Shown piece after piece: positions 3,399 through 24,281 of a stretch of DNA of 24,375 nt. Numbering within the stretch: position 1 is the first letter of the stretch; the number at the start of each line of letters is the position of its first letter. Under the pieces are notes generated by a model. That model did not search any database, was not told the DNA's origin, and saw only the letters and a program-made list of their open reading frames with translations. Source of the stretch: a virus; the IMG/VR virus record IMGVR_UViG_3300036945_001187, positions 1 to 24,375 of that record; one strand, written 5' to 3'. Both the position numbers and the translations under genes were made by a program.

Positions 3399-3935
3399 AT
3401 GGTAAAGCAAAGAGGCGGGGCATTTCCTGACTTCCAAAAAATCATCAAAGATTTGGAGGATGTAAAAAAGCAGTTGAAAAAACTGCCTACTTATGCAGGT
3501 ACAGAGGCTTTGAATTTTTTTAAACAGAGCTTCAAACGGCAAGGCTTCATTGATGAAGCTTATGAGCCTTGGAAGCCCCGAAAAGAGCGCACAGCAGGGC
3601 GCAAGATGCGGCGCGAAGGTCGCAGGGCTGTATTGGTTAAATCGGGTAGATTACGGCGCAGCCTACGGAAAAAGGTAACAGGCACAGTAATAGAGATTTT
3701 GACCGATGTGCCCTATGCAGAAATACACAATGAAGGCGGTACGATACAAACGACTGCCAATGTCCGAAACCATGACAGACGTACCAAGCGCGGCAAAACA
3801 CAGGTGAGCGCACACACGCGCAGGGTAAATATGAAGATACCCAAACGGCAATTTATGGGCGAATCAGCCTTCTTGAATAAAAGGTTTATATTTCAGTTTG
3901 AACGCCTGCTTAGGGCAATACCAATTTTCAAATAA
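3399..3935 (+). CDS. Virion morphogenesis protein, Mu gpG-like
   Basis: This 178-residue basic protein matches the Mu G / P2 S type tail completion family. It has an N-terminal helix (FQKIIKDLEDVKKQLKKL), then WKPRK, the signature LVKSGRLRRSLR at about residues 79-90, YAEIHNEGG at about 106-114, and near the end PKRQFMG. Known members act in joining tail to head or in finishing the tail. It is the first gene after the dyad promoter and overlaps the next gene by one base at TAATG. Confidence 0.8.
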   Translation: MVKQRGGAFPDFQKIIKDLEDVKKQLKKLPTYAGTEALNFFKQSFKRQGFIDEAYEPWKPRKERTAGRKMRREGRRAVLVKSGRLRRSLRKKVTGTVIEILTDVPYAEIHNEGGTIQTTANVRNHDRRTKRGKTQVSAHTRRVNMKIPKRQFMGESAFLNKRFIFQFERLLRAIPIFK

Positions 3936-4474
3936 TGATACTCGAGTATTATCAAATTATCAAAGCCAGACTCCAAGAAATCACCCAACTAAAAGAGGTG
4001 GATTGGTACTATGCACAGGAAGAGCAAGCGGAGGAAAACACCTTGTTTGTAGATTGTGGTGCTTATATAGAATTTGAGGCAATTGACTGGGCTACGATGG
4101 GCACGGGTATTCAACAAGCCACGCTCGGCTTTAATATCCATGTGGTAAGCGAATCTATGTATGATAACGACCAAAGAGTATTAGACCCAACCACCAACCA
4201 TCTAGGGCTTAACGCCTTGGTATATCAAAAGCTGCACAAATACGGGGCTTGGCTCTCTTCGTTGCCCGCCTTTGCTGCCTTGGCAAATACAGGCAACGAT
4301 AAAAGGGTGGTAAATGAAATAGTGCGCACGAGCACCACGCCCGACCATCGGCTCAGTAACCTAATGGTTACGGTGCAACGGTTCCAAAGTACCGTGCTGG
4401 ATGTGAGCGCGACCCCAGCCTACATACAGACTTTAATCAATAATCTAAATATTACTGCCAGCTATGACAACTAA
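3935..4474 (+). CDS. Probable tail terminator / minor tail protein
   Basis: This 179-residue protein starts in a one-base overlap with the gpG-like gene. The layout is an N-terminal helix (YYQIIKARLQEITQLKEVDW), a run of beta-like segments (FVDCGAYIEFEAIDW, ATLGFNIHVVSE), and a helical stretch before FQSTVLDVS. This order is typical of tail terminator and tail completion proteins that sit next to gpG. I infer a structural role; the exact family is not certain. It overlaps the following small gene. Confidence 0.55.
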   Translation: MILEYYQIIKARLQEITQLKEVDWYYAQEEQAEENTLFVDCGAYIEFEAIDWATMGTGIQQATLGFNIHVVSESMYDNDQRVLDPTTNHLGLNALVYQKLHKYGAWLSSLPAFAALANTGNDKRVVNEIVRTSTTPDHRLSNLMVTVQRFQSTVLDVSATPAYIQTLINNLNITASYDN

Positions 4475-4664
4475 CGCAGCATCAATGACCCGCCACGAGC
4501 GGCGCAAAGCAAACACCGCCCAGCGCAATGCTCAAATAACTACGATGTTCAGCGAATTGTACCACAAAAATAGAGTTCGTTTGGATGATGTAATAGATAC
4601 GCTTTCTTCACGGTTCGCGCTTTCGGGTAAAACTATCGAGCGAATTTTATCAAAAAAACGCTAA
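4464..4664 (+). CDS. Small basic helix-turn-helix-like protein
   Basis: This 66-residue protein overlaps the previous gene by 11 nt and is followed with no gap by the next ATG. After a basic N-terminus (TRHERRKANTAQRN) it has two helices: FSELYHKNRVRLDDVIDTLS, then SRFALSGKTIERILSKK, where the last helix looks like the recognition helix of a small HTH. Short proteins of this pattern occur in Bacteroidetes phages. It may bind DNA and regulate late genes, which is inference. Confidence 0.6.
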   Translation: MTTNAASMTRHERRKANTAQRNAQITTMFSELYHKNRVRLDDVIDTLSSRFALSGKTIERILSKKR

Positions 4665-4892
4665 ATGGCAAACGAATTTTCATTAGGGCAAAAGCTATTT
4701 TGGTTGGATGTTACCGAAAGCTCGAAAACTGCTAAATATGGTTGGGTGGCAGAAATAACCAATACCAATGGCGATTACAGCTATACGATGCGAGATGCAA
4801 GCGGTAACGCTGTATCAAAAGAAGCATCAGAGTTGAGCGACATAGAAAACCCCATTATAGAACAGCTTAACGAAGCGGAGGAGGAGGAATAA
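4665..4892 (+). CDS. Small hypothetical structural-type protein
   Basis: This 75-residue protein starts directly after the preceding stop. It has a beta-rich core resembling a small barrel (LFWLDVTESSKTAKYGWVAE, YSYTMRDASGN) and a strongly acidic C-terminus (LNEAEEEE). The next gene is similar in shape, so the pair may be distant relatives or paralogues. Its function is unknown. The overlap with the next gene is one base (TAATG). Confidence 0.6.
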   Translation: MANEFSLGQKLFWLDVTESSKTAKYGWVAEITNTNGDYSYTMRDASGNAVSKEASELSDIENPIIEQLNEAEEEE

Positions 4893-5185
4893 TGGCTACT
4901 ACTGCAAATCCACAACTTACATTAGGCACTAATGTCTTTGTAGTGGCACTGGGCAACGGCGAGATTGAACGGCACAAGGGAGCCGTTTTTTTTAGGGCTG
5001 TTGTAGAAGAAATTACTTGGGGTGATACGGAAAACCAATACCGTTATAGGTTGGTAGGAGCCAAGCGAACGGTTTGGATGCCCGAAACGAAGCTAAATAT
5101 AGGTACTGTTGGCGAATATTTTAGCACGAATCAAAATAATGCGCGGGCTGCTTTCCGTACGCTTTCAGATTCGCAGTATCCATAA
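4892..5185 (+). CDS. Small hypothetical structural-type protein
   Basis: This 97-residue protein follows a purine-rich GGAGGAGGAGG stretch, one of the few convincing Shine-Dalgarno-like sequences in the window. It is beta-rich (LGTNVFVVALGNGEIERHKG, RYRLVGAKRTVWMPETKL) and ends with a short helix (NNARAAFRTLSDSQYP). The layout of a G-x-x-VF/LF start, a GW/TW core and a charged loop recalls the preceding small protein. No named family was recognised. It is the last gene before the terminator at 5301. Confidence 0.6.
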   Translation: MATTANPQLTLGTNVFVVALGNGEIERHKGAVFFRAVVEEITWGDTENQYRYRLVGAKRTVWMPETKLNIGTVGEYFSTNQNNARAAFRTLSDSQYP

Positions 5186-5200
5186 AATTATACTTTGGCG

Positions 5201-5290
5201 ATGCTGCTGGGCGAGTTAGGTAGAGGAGGCAAGTACCGCTACGAGCCTTATTAAGCAGCAAAGCGACTGAAGAACCTTGCCCGATATTAG
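5201..5290 (+). other. Untranslated stretch with possible RNA structure or a 17-codon ORF
   Basis: Between the stop at 5185 and the terminator at 5301 there is no gene of normal size. A 17-codon ORF runs from ATG 5201 to TAA 5254 (MLLGELGRGGKYRYEPY). The same bases can fold: TGCTGCT (5202-5208) pairs with AGCAGCA (5254-5260), enclosing AGGC/GCCT (5227-5230 with 5245-5248). It could be a structured 3' end, a small RNA released by the terminator, or a tiny peptide gene. None is proved. Confidence 0.2.
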
Positions 5291-5300
5291 GAGTATTTAA

Positions 5301-5328
5301 AAAGCCCCGCCAGTGATGGTGGGGCTTT
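5301..5328 (+). terminator. Strong rho-independent terminator
   Basis: AAAGCCCCGCCA (5301-5312) pairs with TGGTGGGGCTTT (5317-5328) through 12 positions with one G-U pair and a four-base loop. A-runs upstream and T bases downstream suit termination in either direction. It isolates the cassette that follows from the 3399-5185 unit. Confidence 0.9.
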
Positions 5329-5352
5329 GGTGTTAAAAAACAAAAAAATGTA

Positions 5353-5425
5353 CAACTTTTTGTTGTTAAATTCGTTAGAATAAAAAACAAAATGTAATAA
5401 CAAAATAGTAACATTTTGTTTTTTA
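5353..5425 (+). promoter_or_regulatory. Triple half-site operator region upstream of the two-gene cassette
   Basis: Three copies of an ACATTTTGTT-like half-site are present: an imperfect one at 5353-5367 (CAACTTTTTGTTGTT), an inverted one at 5381-5395 (TAAAAAACAAAATGT), and a direct one at 5411-5425 (ACATTTTGTTTTTTA). The last two form a perfect 15-bp inverted repeat with a 15-nt spacer. The first two plus their spacer, which contains AATTCGTTA, look like a diverged copy of the dyad at 3326-3367. I infer a shared regulator binding site. Confidence 0.55.
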
Positions 5426-5442
5426 CTTTTAAATGTGTTTTA

Positions 5443-5479
5443 TATCTTGCATTCATTTGAAACACTTAACTGAATGCAA
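5443..5479 (+). promoter_or_regulatory. Probable promoter and start-site dyad of the cassette
   Basis: TATCTTG at 5443-5449 is close to the -7 box TAnnTTTG and matches the TATCTTTA seen before gene 3399. A 9-bp perfect inverted repeat, TTGCATTCA (5447-5455) and TGAATGCAA (5471-5479), overlaps the putative -7 box and runs to two bases before the ATG at 5482. It could be an operator or an mRNA hairpin hiding the start site. Confidence 0.45.
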
Positions 5480-5481
5480 TT

Positions 5482-5970
5482 ATGACTCCACAAGAATTAG
5501 CAGTAATCTTTAATCTAAAAAAGATTCCTACAAATTTGTCTCTTTTGCTTAATTTTCCATCTCAAGGAGGATTACTAACTATCGATTTACAGGATTCAAG
5601 AAATGGGCGAATAAAGTTTAATGCCGATGTAAATAGAAAAAACAAGATAAATGATAAACTCACACTAAATCTTCGATACCAAGAAAGCATCTTTATTAGA
5701 AGATTAGATTTTATGGGGTCGCATAGAAACCCTGTAGCTCCAGCCCCCGATGCTATGTTTGAAGGATTTGAGGATTATGAATTTATTCGGGAAGACCATT
5801 TGCATTTTTATATTGAAGGATACCATGAAAAATGGGCATTGCCATTAACTCATGTGAAAGGACTAGATATATTGCCTTCAGATGATTTATACGACAAAAT
5901 GGCTAAATTTTTTGACTATTGCAATATTGATAATATATTGCCAATATTACCTAAACCTTTAATTATATAA
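5482..5970 (+). CDS. Accessory protein, DUF6978-like, partner of DUF1828 protein
   Basis: This 162-residue soluble protein is AT-rich compared with its phage neighbours. It starts with a helix (TPQELAVIFNLKKIP) and continues as a mixed beta sheet, including GRIKFNADVNRKNKINDKLT, LNLRYQESIFIRRLDF, and the conserved-looking HRNP at about residues 81-84 followed by GFEDYEFIREDHLHFYIEGY. The pattern RRLD-x-x-G-x-HxNP and its place next to a DUF1828 gene recall the DUF6978 family of unknown function; this is from memory and moderate. It lies 13 nt before the next gene in the same unit. The cassette sits between two terminators and has its own promoter, like a moron. A defence, counter-defence or immunity role is inference only. 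Confidence 0.6.
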   Translation: MTPQELAVIFNLKKIPTNLSLLLNFPSQGGLLTIDLQDSRNGRIKFNADVNRKNKINDKLTLNLRYQESIFIRRLDFMGSHRNPVAPAPDAMFEGFEDYEFIREDHLHFYIEGYHEKWALPLTHVKGLDILPSDDLYDKMAKFFDYCNIDNILPILPKPLII

Positions 5971-5983
5971 AACATCTCTTTCT

Positions 5984-6745
5984 ATGAAAGAACTAATTGA
6001 TGCCTATATAGAATGGCTCAAAAATGGAATACATATTCGTGAATTAGATAATGGTTGGTCAGAAATAATCACACCGTTTCTTAATCATCGCAATGATATG
6101 ATAGAAATATATGCTAAAAAAAATGGCGATGAAATTTTGCTATCAGATGCGTGTGTTACTATCACAGACCTTGGTTTAATGGGAGTAGATTTCAATACCC
6201 GTTCCCAAAAAAGGCTGGATGAACTTAACGTAGTCCTAAATTCTTTTGGTGTTACTAAAAATTCAGATAATGAGCTAATCATTAAAACTAGCGTTTCAAA
6301 TTTTGCAAGAGATAAACACCGTTTTTTACAAGCGATAATGAGTGTAGATGATATGTTCATTTTGTCTAAACAAAAGGTAGAAAATTTCTTTTTAGAGGAT
6401 GTTGCTACATTTTTAGACACCTATGAAATACCATATGCAAAAGATGCTTTTTTCACTGGAAAAAGTGGCTTAATGCACAAGTTCGATTTTATTATCCCCA
6501 AAGGAAAAAGACAAAGTGATACAATTATTAGAGCAATTAATTACCCTAAAAAGGATGTAATTGTAAATGCCATGTTTATGATAAGTGACACTCAAGAAGT
6601 AAGAGAAAAAACGCAGGGAGTTCTTATCTTAAATGATTCGCACGGAGTGTCCCCCGAAATTAAGACTGCGCTAGAAGAGTACGATATATTTTCCGTTAAT
6701 TGGTCTGAAAGGCAAGAGATTTTGCCGTTTTTAGCTAGAGCATGA
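5984..6745 (+). CDS. DUF1828/DUF1829 domain protein
   Basis: This 253-residue protein shows the two-domain layout of DUF1828 plus DUF1829. Residues of about 23-115 carry the DUF1828 pattern: GWSEIITPFLNHRNDMIEIY, LLSDACVTITDLGLMGVDF, then an R-x-x-x-L-x-x-x-LNSFGV helix, and later KHRFLQAIMSVDDM. The C-terminal half (from about residue 130, with FFTGKSGLMHKFDFIIPKGK) fits DUF1829. The conserved acidic residues and the H-K-F-D-F-I-I-P strand resemble a nuclease-like fold, but no catalytic motif can be proved. Function is unknown. These genes are often carried by phages and mobile elements. It is co-transcribed with the upstream partner and ends just before a bidirectional terminator. Confidence 0.75.
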   Translation: MKELIDAYIEWLKNGIHIRELDNGWSEIITPFLNHRNDMIEIYAKKNGDEILLSDACVTITDLGLMGVDFNTRSQKRLDELNVVLNSFGVTKNSDNELIIKTSVSNFARDKHRFLQAIMSVDDMFILSKQKVENFFLEDVATFLDTYEIPYAKDAFFTGKSGLMHKFDFIIPKGKRQSDTIIRAINYPKKDVIVNAMFMISDTQEVREKTQGVLILNDSHGVSPEIKTALEEYDIFSVNWSERQEILPFLARA

Positions 6746-6749
6746 TTCT

Positions 6750-6790
6750 AAAAAAGCCCCGTATTACTCACGTAGTACGGGGCTTCATTA
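6750..6790. terminator. Bidirectional terminator between convergent units
   Basis: AAGCCCCGTA (6754-6763) pairs with TACGGGGCTT (6776-6785), with a further inner TAC/GTA pairing. Upstream A-runs and T-rich flanks let it work on both strands. It separates the rightward cassette from the leftward portal gene, whose stop is at 6806. Confidence 0.9.
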
Positions 6791-6805: not shown

Positions 6806-8770
6806 TTACTCTTTCGGCTTTATTTTGTTCATAGCCTTTAAAATTTTGTCTTTGGTTTCTTTCGGCACATCCGTAAAATACGGATGTTTTTCGCCAAATA
6901 AATCACCGTCCTTGCCTGCATTATGTCTAAATGTCATCGGCACTTCTTCTGTGCTGGGCAATGATTCAGGCTGTACCTCGTCAGCCTCAGCCAAAGCGAT
7001 AACATCGCAACGGCAATTCCAACCGTTGGGCGGGAAAAAGCTATTCCAAAAACTATCGGTGATGGGCAATGTAACACCATCAAGAGCGGCATGGGCTTCG
7101 CGTGTGCGCTCGTCATTGATAGCCACATATTGCAAATAAGGGAAATCTTCGCGCTCTGCCCAAAGTTCGCCCCAACGGGCTGCCATTTGTGCTGTGCCTA
7201 TGCTGGTGTTATATTCGGACTCCAGCCAAGTTTCATTGTAGATGGTATTGATGCCCTGTGCTACTTCTTTGAAGTCGCTGAAGCTCCTTACCACATCGTT
7301 TTCATCTGTCATCGCATCCACCATATCGGCTATGTTATGGTAGTTTTTGAATGCCGCAAAACTGTAAACGCTTTCGCGTAGTTGTTGCATCATTTTGTAG
7401 TCTTTATCTTCTTTGTCGATTTTCAACCAGCTTTTGCCTGTGCCTTTTTCTACGGCTTTCCAAAGCTCTTGCACATTGTAAAGCCAAAGAGCTGCATCCA
7501 AGTCTCCTTTTTTGAGTTTGCCGTCATAGACATTTTTAGCAGCTTTTTGGTACAACTCATCCAAGGTCTTAGGCTTTGCCAAGGCATATTTCTTGGGTGA
7601 GCAGCACAGAGAGCCAAGAGGATAGAACTCTTTAGTTAGCTTTTTTTTTTGCGGCTCAGGTGTAGGTATGCTTTTGCTATCCTCTTTATCTTTCTGCTCC
7701 AGTTCCAAGAATTGGATTTTATAGCCATCCAAAGGATAACCAAAGCCTATTAAAAAAGGGATAAGCTCATCATTGACATGAAACTGCAAATCTCGGAGAA
7801 TGGAAGCCACAAATACTTCAAACACGCTTTTGTGTACATCAGCCGTACCTGCATAGGCTTCGTTGCTGCTTGTGCCTGTTTGACCCACAACGACTTTACT
7901 ATTGCTGTTATCGCTGTAATCGATAAGCTCTAGGTATATTTTGTAGGCATCTGTATTGCCACTTTCAATAAATTCTAGCTCATCATTTTCATCCAGCACA
8001 GCCCAAGAATTACTACCAAGGTTGGCAAGCATCTCGCCTCTTCTATCTACTTCGGTTTGGTCGCTGGTATCAGTTTTAGCGATGGTAATTGGCATTCCAA
8101 ATTTTTCACTTCTACGGCTCCAGTCGCCCAGCGCATAGCGTTTGCGGATAACATCTTGGCTTGCAATCTGCAAAAGCCCAAGATCAAATTTGCCGCCCAT
8201 TTCCATTAGCCACTTGCCAATATCTGTATCTCGGTACGGAATGCCCTTGGTGTCGCTTGGAGTGATAAGGATTTCGCCCGTTTCGGGGCGTACGTGTTCG
8301 CGTGGCATAAGGGTTATTTCTGAAAACTCGCCGCTTTTTTTGTTCTGTTCTCCAAACTCTACCAAGCTATGTCCCCAAAAATAGGTATCAACAAATGTGC
8401 GGATATAGTCTATAAACCATTTGCGTTGCAGCAAGTCCGTTGCCACTTTGTTTTCTTTGCCTTTGCTGTCTCGCAATTGGAATCCAGCAGCCACCACGCT
8501 TTCGCGTAGTAGCCGCATTTGACTGAATAAATGCCCATCCCGCCATACTTCTCGGTAAATGGCATATAGGTTACGTCTATCAGGGCGCAGCGGGTTCTCG
8601 GCTGAAAGAATCGCATCCCCCAGCGTTTTTAGTTGCAGTTCTACTCTGTAGTTATGCAGCCGCTTTATTTGCGGAAACATTCTACGACCCTTCGGGCTGG
8701 CTAAAGAGGCGGATTTATTGGCTCCAAAAATGGAGCGAAAACCACTGGCTATTCTTTGAAAAAAATTCAT
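6806..8770 (-). CDS. Portal protein (DUF935) fused to Mu gpF-like head morphogenesis domain
   Basis: This 654-residue protein joins two Mu proteins. Residues of about 35-365 match DUF935, the Mu gp29 portal (RRNLYAIYREVWRDGHLFSQ, FVDTYFWGHSLVEF, RRGEMLANLGSNSWAVL, GQTGTSS). Residues of about 400-654 match the Mu F head morphogenesis family, with YLQYVAINDERTREAHAALD at 545-564, FWNSFFPPNGWNCRCDV at 574-590 and a final HPYF. The portal would be the DNA channel at one capsid vertex; gpF acts early in head assembly. The linker (370-400) is rich in K, P and S and contains CCSPKKYA, encoded by a 27-bp sequence repeated in the DUF6046 gene. The gene is last in the leftward packaging module and follows a 114-bp spacer with repeats. 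Confidence 0.9.
   Translation of the reverse strand: MNFFQRIASGFRSIFGANKSASLASPKGRRMFPQIKRLHNYRVELQLKTLGDAILSAENPLRPDRRNLYAIYREVWRDGHLFSQMRLLRESVVAAGFQLRDSKGKENKVATDLLQRKWFIDYIRTFVDTYFWGHSLVEFGEQNKKSGEFSEITLMPREHVRPETGEILITPSDTKGIPYRDTDIGKWLMEMGGKFDLGLLQIASQDVIRKRYALGDWSRRSEKFGMPITIAKTDTSDQTEVDRRGEMLANLGSNSWAVLDENDELEFIESGNTDAYKIYLELIDYSDNSNSKVVVGQTGTSSNEAYAGTADVHKSVFEVFVASILRDLQFHVNDELIPFLIGFGYPLDGYKIQFLELEQKDKEDSKSIPTPEPQKKKLTKEFYPLGSLCCSPKKYALAKPKTLDELYQKAAKNVYDGKLKKGDLDAALWLYNVQELWKAVEKGTGKSWLKIDKEDKDYKMMQQLRESVYSFAAFKNYHNIADMVDAMTDENDVVRSFSDFKEVAQGINTIYNETWLESEYNTSIGTAQMAARWGELWAEREDFPYLQYVAINDERTREAHAALDGVTLPITDSFWNSFFPPNGWNCRCDVIALAEADEVQPESLPSTEEVPMTFRHNAGKDGDLFGEKHPYFTDVPKETKDKILKAMNKIKPKE
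7579..7605. repeat. 27-bp dispersed direct repeat, copy 1
   Basis: The 27-bp string whose core is GGCATATTTCTTGGGTGAGC occurs exactly here and at 18736-18762, in the same + orientation. Here it is read antisense inside the linker of the portal-F fusion. It contains the short dyad CCAAG...CTTGG. The exact boundaries were checked base by base: the bases on either side differ between the two copies. Confidence 0.85.
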
Positions 8771-23495: not shown

Positions 23496-24281
23496 ATGAA
23501 AACGCCTATCACCTACTACGGAGGCAAGCAACTAATGGTTAAATCCATCTTACCACTTATCCCTAAGCACTGACTATATTGTGAGCCGTTTGCTGGCGGC
23601 GGTGCGGTGTTCTTTGCTAAAGACAAATCTGAAGTAGAAGTATTGAATGATACCAATAGAATGGTAATCAACTTTTATGAACAAGCAAAGACTAATTTTG
23701 AAGCATTGCAGCAGGCAATAAAAGCTACACCAATGAGCCGAGCAGCGCATGAAGATGCAATTGTGATTTACAACCACCCTCATTTGTTTACATCATTGCA
23801 GGCGGCGTGAGCATTTTGGGTTCTTACTCAGCAGGGTTTTGCTGGTATGATTTCCGAAACATGGGGCTACGGCGTAGCCAATAACAAAAGCGAATTGAGG
23901 TTGAACAATAAACGCGAAGCCTTTTTAAAGGATTATGAACAGCGTTTAAATATTGTTCAATTGGAGTGCAGAGATGCTTTAAAAGTTATTCAAAGCAGAG
24001 ACCGCGAAAATTCATTTTTCTATATTGACCCACCTTATTTTAATAGCGATTGCGCTCACTATGGAGGCTATACGAAAGATGATTTTAGAGCGTTACTTTT
24101 GCTTTTGTCTAATATCAAAGGTAAGTTTTTGCTTAGTTCTTATCCCAGTGATGTGCTGGGTGAGTTCCAAAAACGATTTGGTTGGCATCAAATCAGCTTT
24201 GATAAGACTTTATCAGTTGGCAAATCGGGCAAGCGTAAGGTTGAGGTTTTAACAGCCAATTACCCTATCGCACTGCCTTAG
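23496..24281 (+). pseudogene. Dam-type D12 adenine N6-methyltransferase with two in-frame TGA codons
   Basis: The frame from ATG 23496 to TAG 24279-24281 encodes one D12 class methylase of about 261 codons, interrupted by TGA at 23571-23573 and at 23808-23810 with no frameshift. It has the N-terminal ITYYGGKQLMVKSILPLIP, the SAM-binding LYCEPFAGGGAVFF just after the first TGA, and the catalytic FFYIDPPYF, then GKFLLSSYPSDVL. The second TGA is where family members usually have Trp (A-x-AFWVLTQQGF), consistent with TGG to TGA. The protein would be inactive unless UGA is read through. It stands where Mu carries its modification genes and could protect phage DNA. Confidence 0.85.

Follow-up and report, generated by a model that had tools for sequence, protein, structure and literature searches.

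A phage-borne member of the candidate defence system PDC-M24 in a Mu-like phage of Bacteroidota

Introduction

Several described systems bear on how temperate phages and their hosts may carry paired defence genes. In DS-6/HipAD, a HipA-like kinase is accompanied by a DUF3037-DUF1829 protein; the system protected E. coli against phage, and a toxin-antitoxin mode of action has been proposed for it (PMC13092281). The anticodon nuclease PrrC is kept silent by the type I restriction enzyme to which it is linked until a phage anti-restriction factor brings about its release (PMC2610378). P2/P4 phages have cargo hotspots for defence genes (PMC9122126). The PDC systems are unpublished candidates that belong to the series of Payne et al. 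2021 (PMC11811056). One of them, PDC-M24, has so far been only a name in a defence catalogue, and our literature search found no paper describing the function of PDC-M24, DUF1828 or DUF6978. The occurrence of DUF1829 in DS-6/HipAD is the one functional lead for the families considered here.

We analyzed a cassette of two genes, A and B, in a virus record of 24,375 bases (the window, meaning the whole stretch of DNA under analysis) from a Mu-like phage related to the Winoviridae of Flavobacteriia. A sequence-only reading of this DNA had described both families as being of unknown function. The pair has in fact already been catalogued, as PADLOC PDC-M24. We conclude that the window pair is a new phage-borne member of this catalogued but unstudied candidate system, and that it most likely serves the prophage as a weapon against rival phages.

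Results

Gene A (5482-5970, 162 aa) and gene B (5984-6745, 253 aa) both lie on the plus strand, exactly where the sequence-only reading had placed them, and are separated by a gap of 13 nt. To the left of the cassette lies a tail-completion/neck gene (3399-3935) and to the right a fusion of the Mu portal and F genes (6806-8770), which bears out the proposal that the cassette lies between two structural modules. It is also AT-rich, as had been claimed, with 31-34% GC compared to about 38-46% in the flanks. Near the end of the record, an ORF of about 144 aa (23847-24281) matches phage DNA methyltransferase families (phrog_56, 6e-27).

The operator-like repeats that had been noticed upstream of gene A hold up against randomized sequence. 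A perfect 15-nt inverted repeat, TAAAAAACAAAATGT-N15-ACATTTTGTTTTTTA, spans 5381-5425 (arms 5381-5395 and 5411-5425), and an arm of this length was reached in none of 500 dinucleotide shuffles, for which the mean was 7.3 and the maximum 14. The second repeat, at 5447-5479 (arms 5447-5458 and 5468-5479), has 12-nt arms with one mismatch, was matched in 2 of 500 shuffles and immediately precedes the gene A start codon. By their sequence, the two repeats are candidate operators, and such palindromes would allow the cassette to regulate itself. Sigma-70-like promoters were as numerous in the region as in shuffled sequence, in a scan that does not cover Bacteroidota promoters, and the intergenic region gave only sub-threshold, chance-like matches to Rfam and no known RNA.

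Strong hairpins bracket the cassette on both sides. The right one (6754-6785) has 14 pairs and a z-score of -6.1, closes the cassette and is common to the convergent portal transcript. It had been taken for a bidirectional terminator; the hairpin itself is confirmed, but only the leftward (portal) transcript has a good U-run. The earlier description of the cassette's closure was likewise correct on this side while missing a second strong hairpin on the left, AAAGCCCCGCCA..TGGTGGGGCTTT (5301-5328, plus strand), which is of the Rho-independent type (z=-4.05 for 5285-5345). Arms of AAGCCCC/GGGGCTT are common to both hairpins, and homologous terminators at the two ends could help cassette exchange.

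The sole Pfam match of gene A is PF22398 DUF6978 (E=2.9e-20). Gene B matches PF08861 DUF1828 (E=1.3e-25; residues 30-121, 6071-6346, plus strand) and then PF08862 DUF1829 (E=5.6e-24; residues 159-243, 6458-6712, plus strand), so that the ORF calls and Pfam together confirm the families and spacing that had been suggested. Among the PADLOC models, A matches PDC-M24A (PDLC04538) with E=1.3e-30 over residues 2-152, and B matches PDC-M24B (PDLC04539) with E=1.1e-84 over residues 2-247. On these profile matches, the pair belongs to the catalogued candidate system PDC-M24 and is hence not unclassified.

We gathered further loci with B as the query, from genomes and viral contigs and by tblastn of phage and plasmid records. 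An intact A adjoins B in 117 of the 137 loci found in this way, a count that takes in the window itself and its copies as well as two viral contigs (L126:1510-2750 and L127:1254-2460) in which A and B are convergent, with overlapping 3' ends, and still adjacent. The commonest arrangement in the chromosomal set is a 4-nt overlap between A and B. The remaining loci fall at contig ends, belong to viral contigs that have the DUF1828 half alone, or have a broken or missing A. Among 369 genomes sampled at class level, DUF1828 gave 16 matches and DUF6978 gave 7, each of the latter next to a DUF1828 gene; a divergent A-like ORF lies upstream of several other DUF1828 genes. Conserved pairing of the two genes elsewhere, on which the earlier proposal depended, is thus borne out, and homologues acting as virion or replication genes were not found. 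At several loci, A is broken or fragmented next to an intact B. In a search seeded with B, where assembly errors may also account for some cases, this fits a view of A as the costly partner.

The viral contigs that have the DUF1828 half only, with neither DUF1829 nor A, are L034:7992-8387, L035:2943-3371, L132:4954-5388, L133:7986-8363 and L135:7989-8438. These solo genes might act as decoys for the full system or inhibit it. In the family search, DUF1828 also has a match in the E. coli control genome, so a laboratory-tractable relative may exist.

To describe the chromosomal surroundings of the pair, we used 80 genome loci (L036-L115; 77 non-redundant) from many phyla, which were not randomly sampled but match the Gram-negative branch of B best. 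Genes for hsdR and/or hsdS lie within the flanks (up to 8 kb) in 31 of the 77 loci, and both are present in 20. At 7 loci, the start of hsdR lies within the 3' end of B, and in 6 of these the overlap is 4 nt. Pfam confirmed HsdM, HsdS and HsdR at three loci (L057, L079 and L103), and in the first of these, the genes form a seven-gene operon of overlapping ORFs, hsdM-hsdS-ORF-AbiJ-A-B-hsdR (L057:320-9401). The AbiJ gene there occupies the slot between hsdS and hsdR together with the pair.

As a control, neighboring genes were compared with a matched set located more than 4.5 kb from the pair. The PADLOC type I specificity subunit (hsdS) was found in 12/117 near genes versus 1/117 far genes (p=0.0027), and the type I REase in 8 near versus 1 far. 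By Pfam, Mrr (2) and TOTE conflict primases (4) are also found among the near neighbors, and the far set has no comparable cluster. With TOTE primase genes (AEP-TOTE) adjoining it in 4 loci, the pair has a second link to defence apart from type I restriction. The enrichment near defence genes that had been named as a supporting observation is therefore present, mainly as type I restriction-modification operons. When the labels are mapped on the B tree, well-supported branches force a minimum of 10 changes for restriction linkage and of 4 for occurrence in phages, which indicates that both associations were repeatedly gained or lost. The branch of the window is long and its placement is unsupported. 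We consider the linkage to type I restriction operons to be the notable part of these results and the one most worth following.

This linkage also bears on whether the pair might be an addiction module only, with A a toxin and B an antitoxin kept for stabilizing the prophage or element, and with phage defence secondary or absent. Like type II toxin-antitoxin modules, the cassette encodes two small proteins in one operon and has a palindromic control region of its own. The pair is found on plasmids and prophages, B can persist beside a broken A, and a DUF1829-bearing protein is the partner of the HipA kinase toxin in HipAD (PMC13092281). However, HipAD is itself a defence system, and recurrent embedding in type I restriction operons, together with the phage cargo sites described below, points to conflict between elements. 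We regard addiction alone as unlikely, and favor a defence module with A as effector under the control of B.

Sequence searches found no solved relatives for either A or B. AlphaFold2 gave confident single-chain models of the two proteins. A fold search with the model of A (pLDDT 91) found nothing significant in either the PDB or viral models, and the model suggests a small beta-sheet of a fold without solved relatives. Several positions are almost fixed across 111 sequences of A: R74 (98%), H81 (100%), N83 (96%) and H106/H108 (97%). In a 47-sequence alignment, H81, H106 and H108 are invariant. In the model, R74, D76, H81, N83, H106 and H108, encoded within 5701-5805 on the plus strand, sit on or beside two consecutive long strands. 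This placement suggests that the conserved residues form an active site, although any chemistry assigned to it is a guess; it is residue conservation that points to a possible enzymatic role for A. By eye, A has a superficial R-x-D ... H ... H-x-H string like that of the TumE toxin (PF20126), but profile comparison supports no homology, with an hhalign probability of 0.2% against one member.

In the model of B (pLDDT 93), the DUF1829 part has the element order alpha-beta-beta-beta-alpha-beta-alpha-beta, and the best Foldseek match of the model is AF1548 (E=6.4e-4), followed at lower significance (E about 0.003-0.05) by the nucleases PspGI, BbvCI, Can2, R2 endonuclease and NucS. These similarities suggest that DUF1829 adopts a restriction-endonuclease-like (PD-(D/E)XK) fold. 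On strand 3, however, there is no conserved (D/E)xK motif, as the family reads A/T-I-N and the window R-A-I-N. The nuclease-like active site that had been named as possible support is thus not confirmed in a domain that is predicted to have kept the fold, and a role in binding is likelier than one in cutting. Matches of DUF1828 to the secretion chaperones SicP and InvB (E about 0.14-0.27) were too weak to make it chaperone-like.

These features also bear on a second alternative, in which B would be the effector, with DUF1829 cutting invading DNA as a functional PD-(D/E)XK nuclease, and A would be a sensor or inhibitor. The resemblance of the model to restriction-endonuclease-like proteins argues for this possibility, as does the strong conservation of D168 (mostly kept) and D202. 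Without a conserved acid-x-lysine on strand 3, and with Foldseek matches that are mostly weak, an active nuclease is disfavored and we find this account decidedly doubtful. The assignment of A as effector and B as its controller remains the one that we prefer.

Relatives of the phage were traced with the baseplate protein; terminase and portal queries yielded little. Winoviridae and metagenomic Mu-like relatives have the portal-F module and lack the pair; in FPSV-S1, a Dcm methylase lies directly behind F. In another Mu-like phage, with a terminase nearest to those of Helicobacter phages (IMGVR_UViG_2823250113_000002; L117/L159), a diverged pair with 43% identity in B occupies the same kind of place, convergent with the portal-F-G module, and other Helicobacter Mu-like phages have different genes at that site. 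The contig of this Helicobacter-type phage also has two consecutive portal-like ORFs with identical N-terminal sequence (L159:3555-4403 and 4450-5829), which may be a duplication or an assembly artefact. Because the junction is empty or holds other genes in the relatives, while a Helicobacter-type Mu-like phage has the pair there, sequence comparison identifies the pair as cargo of the moron type that related phages lack at this junction, much as had been proposed. We would expect the prophage to express such cargo. Gram-positive temperate phages have the pair between the repressor and the integrase.

Counter-defence, in which the phage's pair, or B alone, would neutralize a host defence, for instance by mimicking a component of a host PDC-M24 or type I restriction operon, could draw on the decoy-like solo DUF1828 genes, but the window has a complete pair like the chromosomal copies and no fragment, and Gram-positive phages keep the pair in the lysogeny module, the place of prophage-expressed genes, making this reading very improbable. 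Among the functions that the sequence-only reading had offered, an anti-phage role is the best supported, while nothing but those solo genes speaks for lysogenic conversion or counter-defence.

Discussion

Our main reading, to which we give a probability of roughly 0.6, is that the cassette is an accessory anti-phage module of the PDC-M24 kind, with A as effector and with B in the role of both controller and sensor. The cassette would probably be expressed in the lysogen from its own AT-rich, palindrome-bearing promoter region. A, a predicted small beta-sheet protein with the R-x-D ... H-x-N ... H-x-H cluster, would be the effector enzyme and might act on RNA or perhaps another nucleic acid. 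B would bind and control A and sense infection, with DUF1829 as an inactivated restriction-endonuclease fold retained for binding. In toxin-antitoxin operons, the antitoxin gene often comes first. A comes first in the cassette, and we count this against the reading of A as effector and B as controller.

In bacteria, the frequent position of the pair between hsdS and hsdR, as with PrrC, suggests that the chromosomal copies may be a back-up that fires when restriction is attacked. The phage-borne pair would act alone to exclude superinfecting phages. A more ambitious version, which we put forward tentatively as a possibility short of an even chance, is that DUF6978-DUF1828/1829 constitutes a new class of effector and controller guarding type I restriction. 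Here, A would be an enzyme of a fold without solved relative and B an inactive-nuclease sensor that restrains A and releases it upon inhibition of restriction, and Mu-like and other temperate phages would have captured the pair for stand-alone superinfection exclusion.

The analysis gives the catalogue entry PDC-M24 a testable shape: the genes are a near-obligate pair, A has an invariant cluster, the nuclease domain of B is degenerate, and in many bacterial phyla the pair recurs within type I restriction operons. A Mu-like phage with the pair at a cargo site implies that a prophage may deploy its own restriction-linked defence. If the proposed role is confirmed, the pair would represent a back-up layer for type I restriction, comparable to PrrC.

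The window pair resembles PDC-M24 in every feature tested: both component models are matched strongly, the genes are adjacent and their order is identical. The window copy is set in a Mu-like Bacteroidota phage and has no restriction genes nearby. Its site recalls the hotspots of P2/P4 phages in that accessory genes are swapped at a fixed site between structural modules, although in Mu-like phages the site is the convergent junction that follows the portal-F module. HipAD, for which defence has been demonstrated, is likewise a two-gene unit in which one protein has DUF1829. Unlike HipAD, the window pair has no HipA kinase, as A matches only DUF6978 in Pfam, and B has DUF1828 as its N-terminal domain and lacks DUF3037. 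PrrC is a parallel in arrangement, as relatives of the pair are likewise found between hsdS and hsdR within type I restriction operons. In contrast to PrrC, A and B have no ABC ATPase, anticodon-nuclease or PrrC homology in Pfam, the pair consists of two proteins, and the window copy is unlinked to restriction genes. The likeness to PrrC is thus an analogy of arrangement and not of descent.
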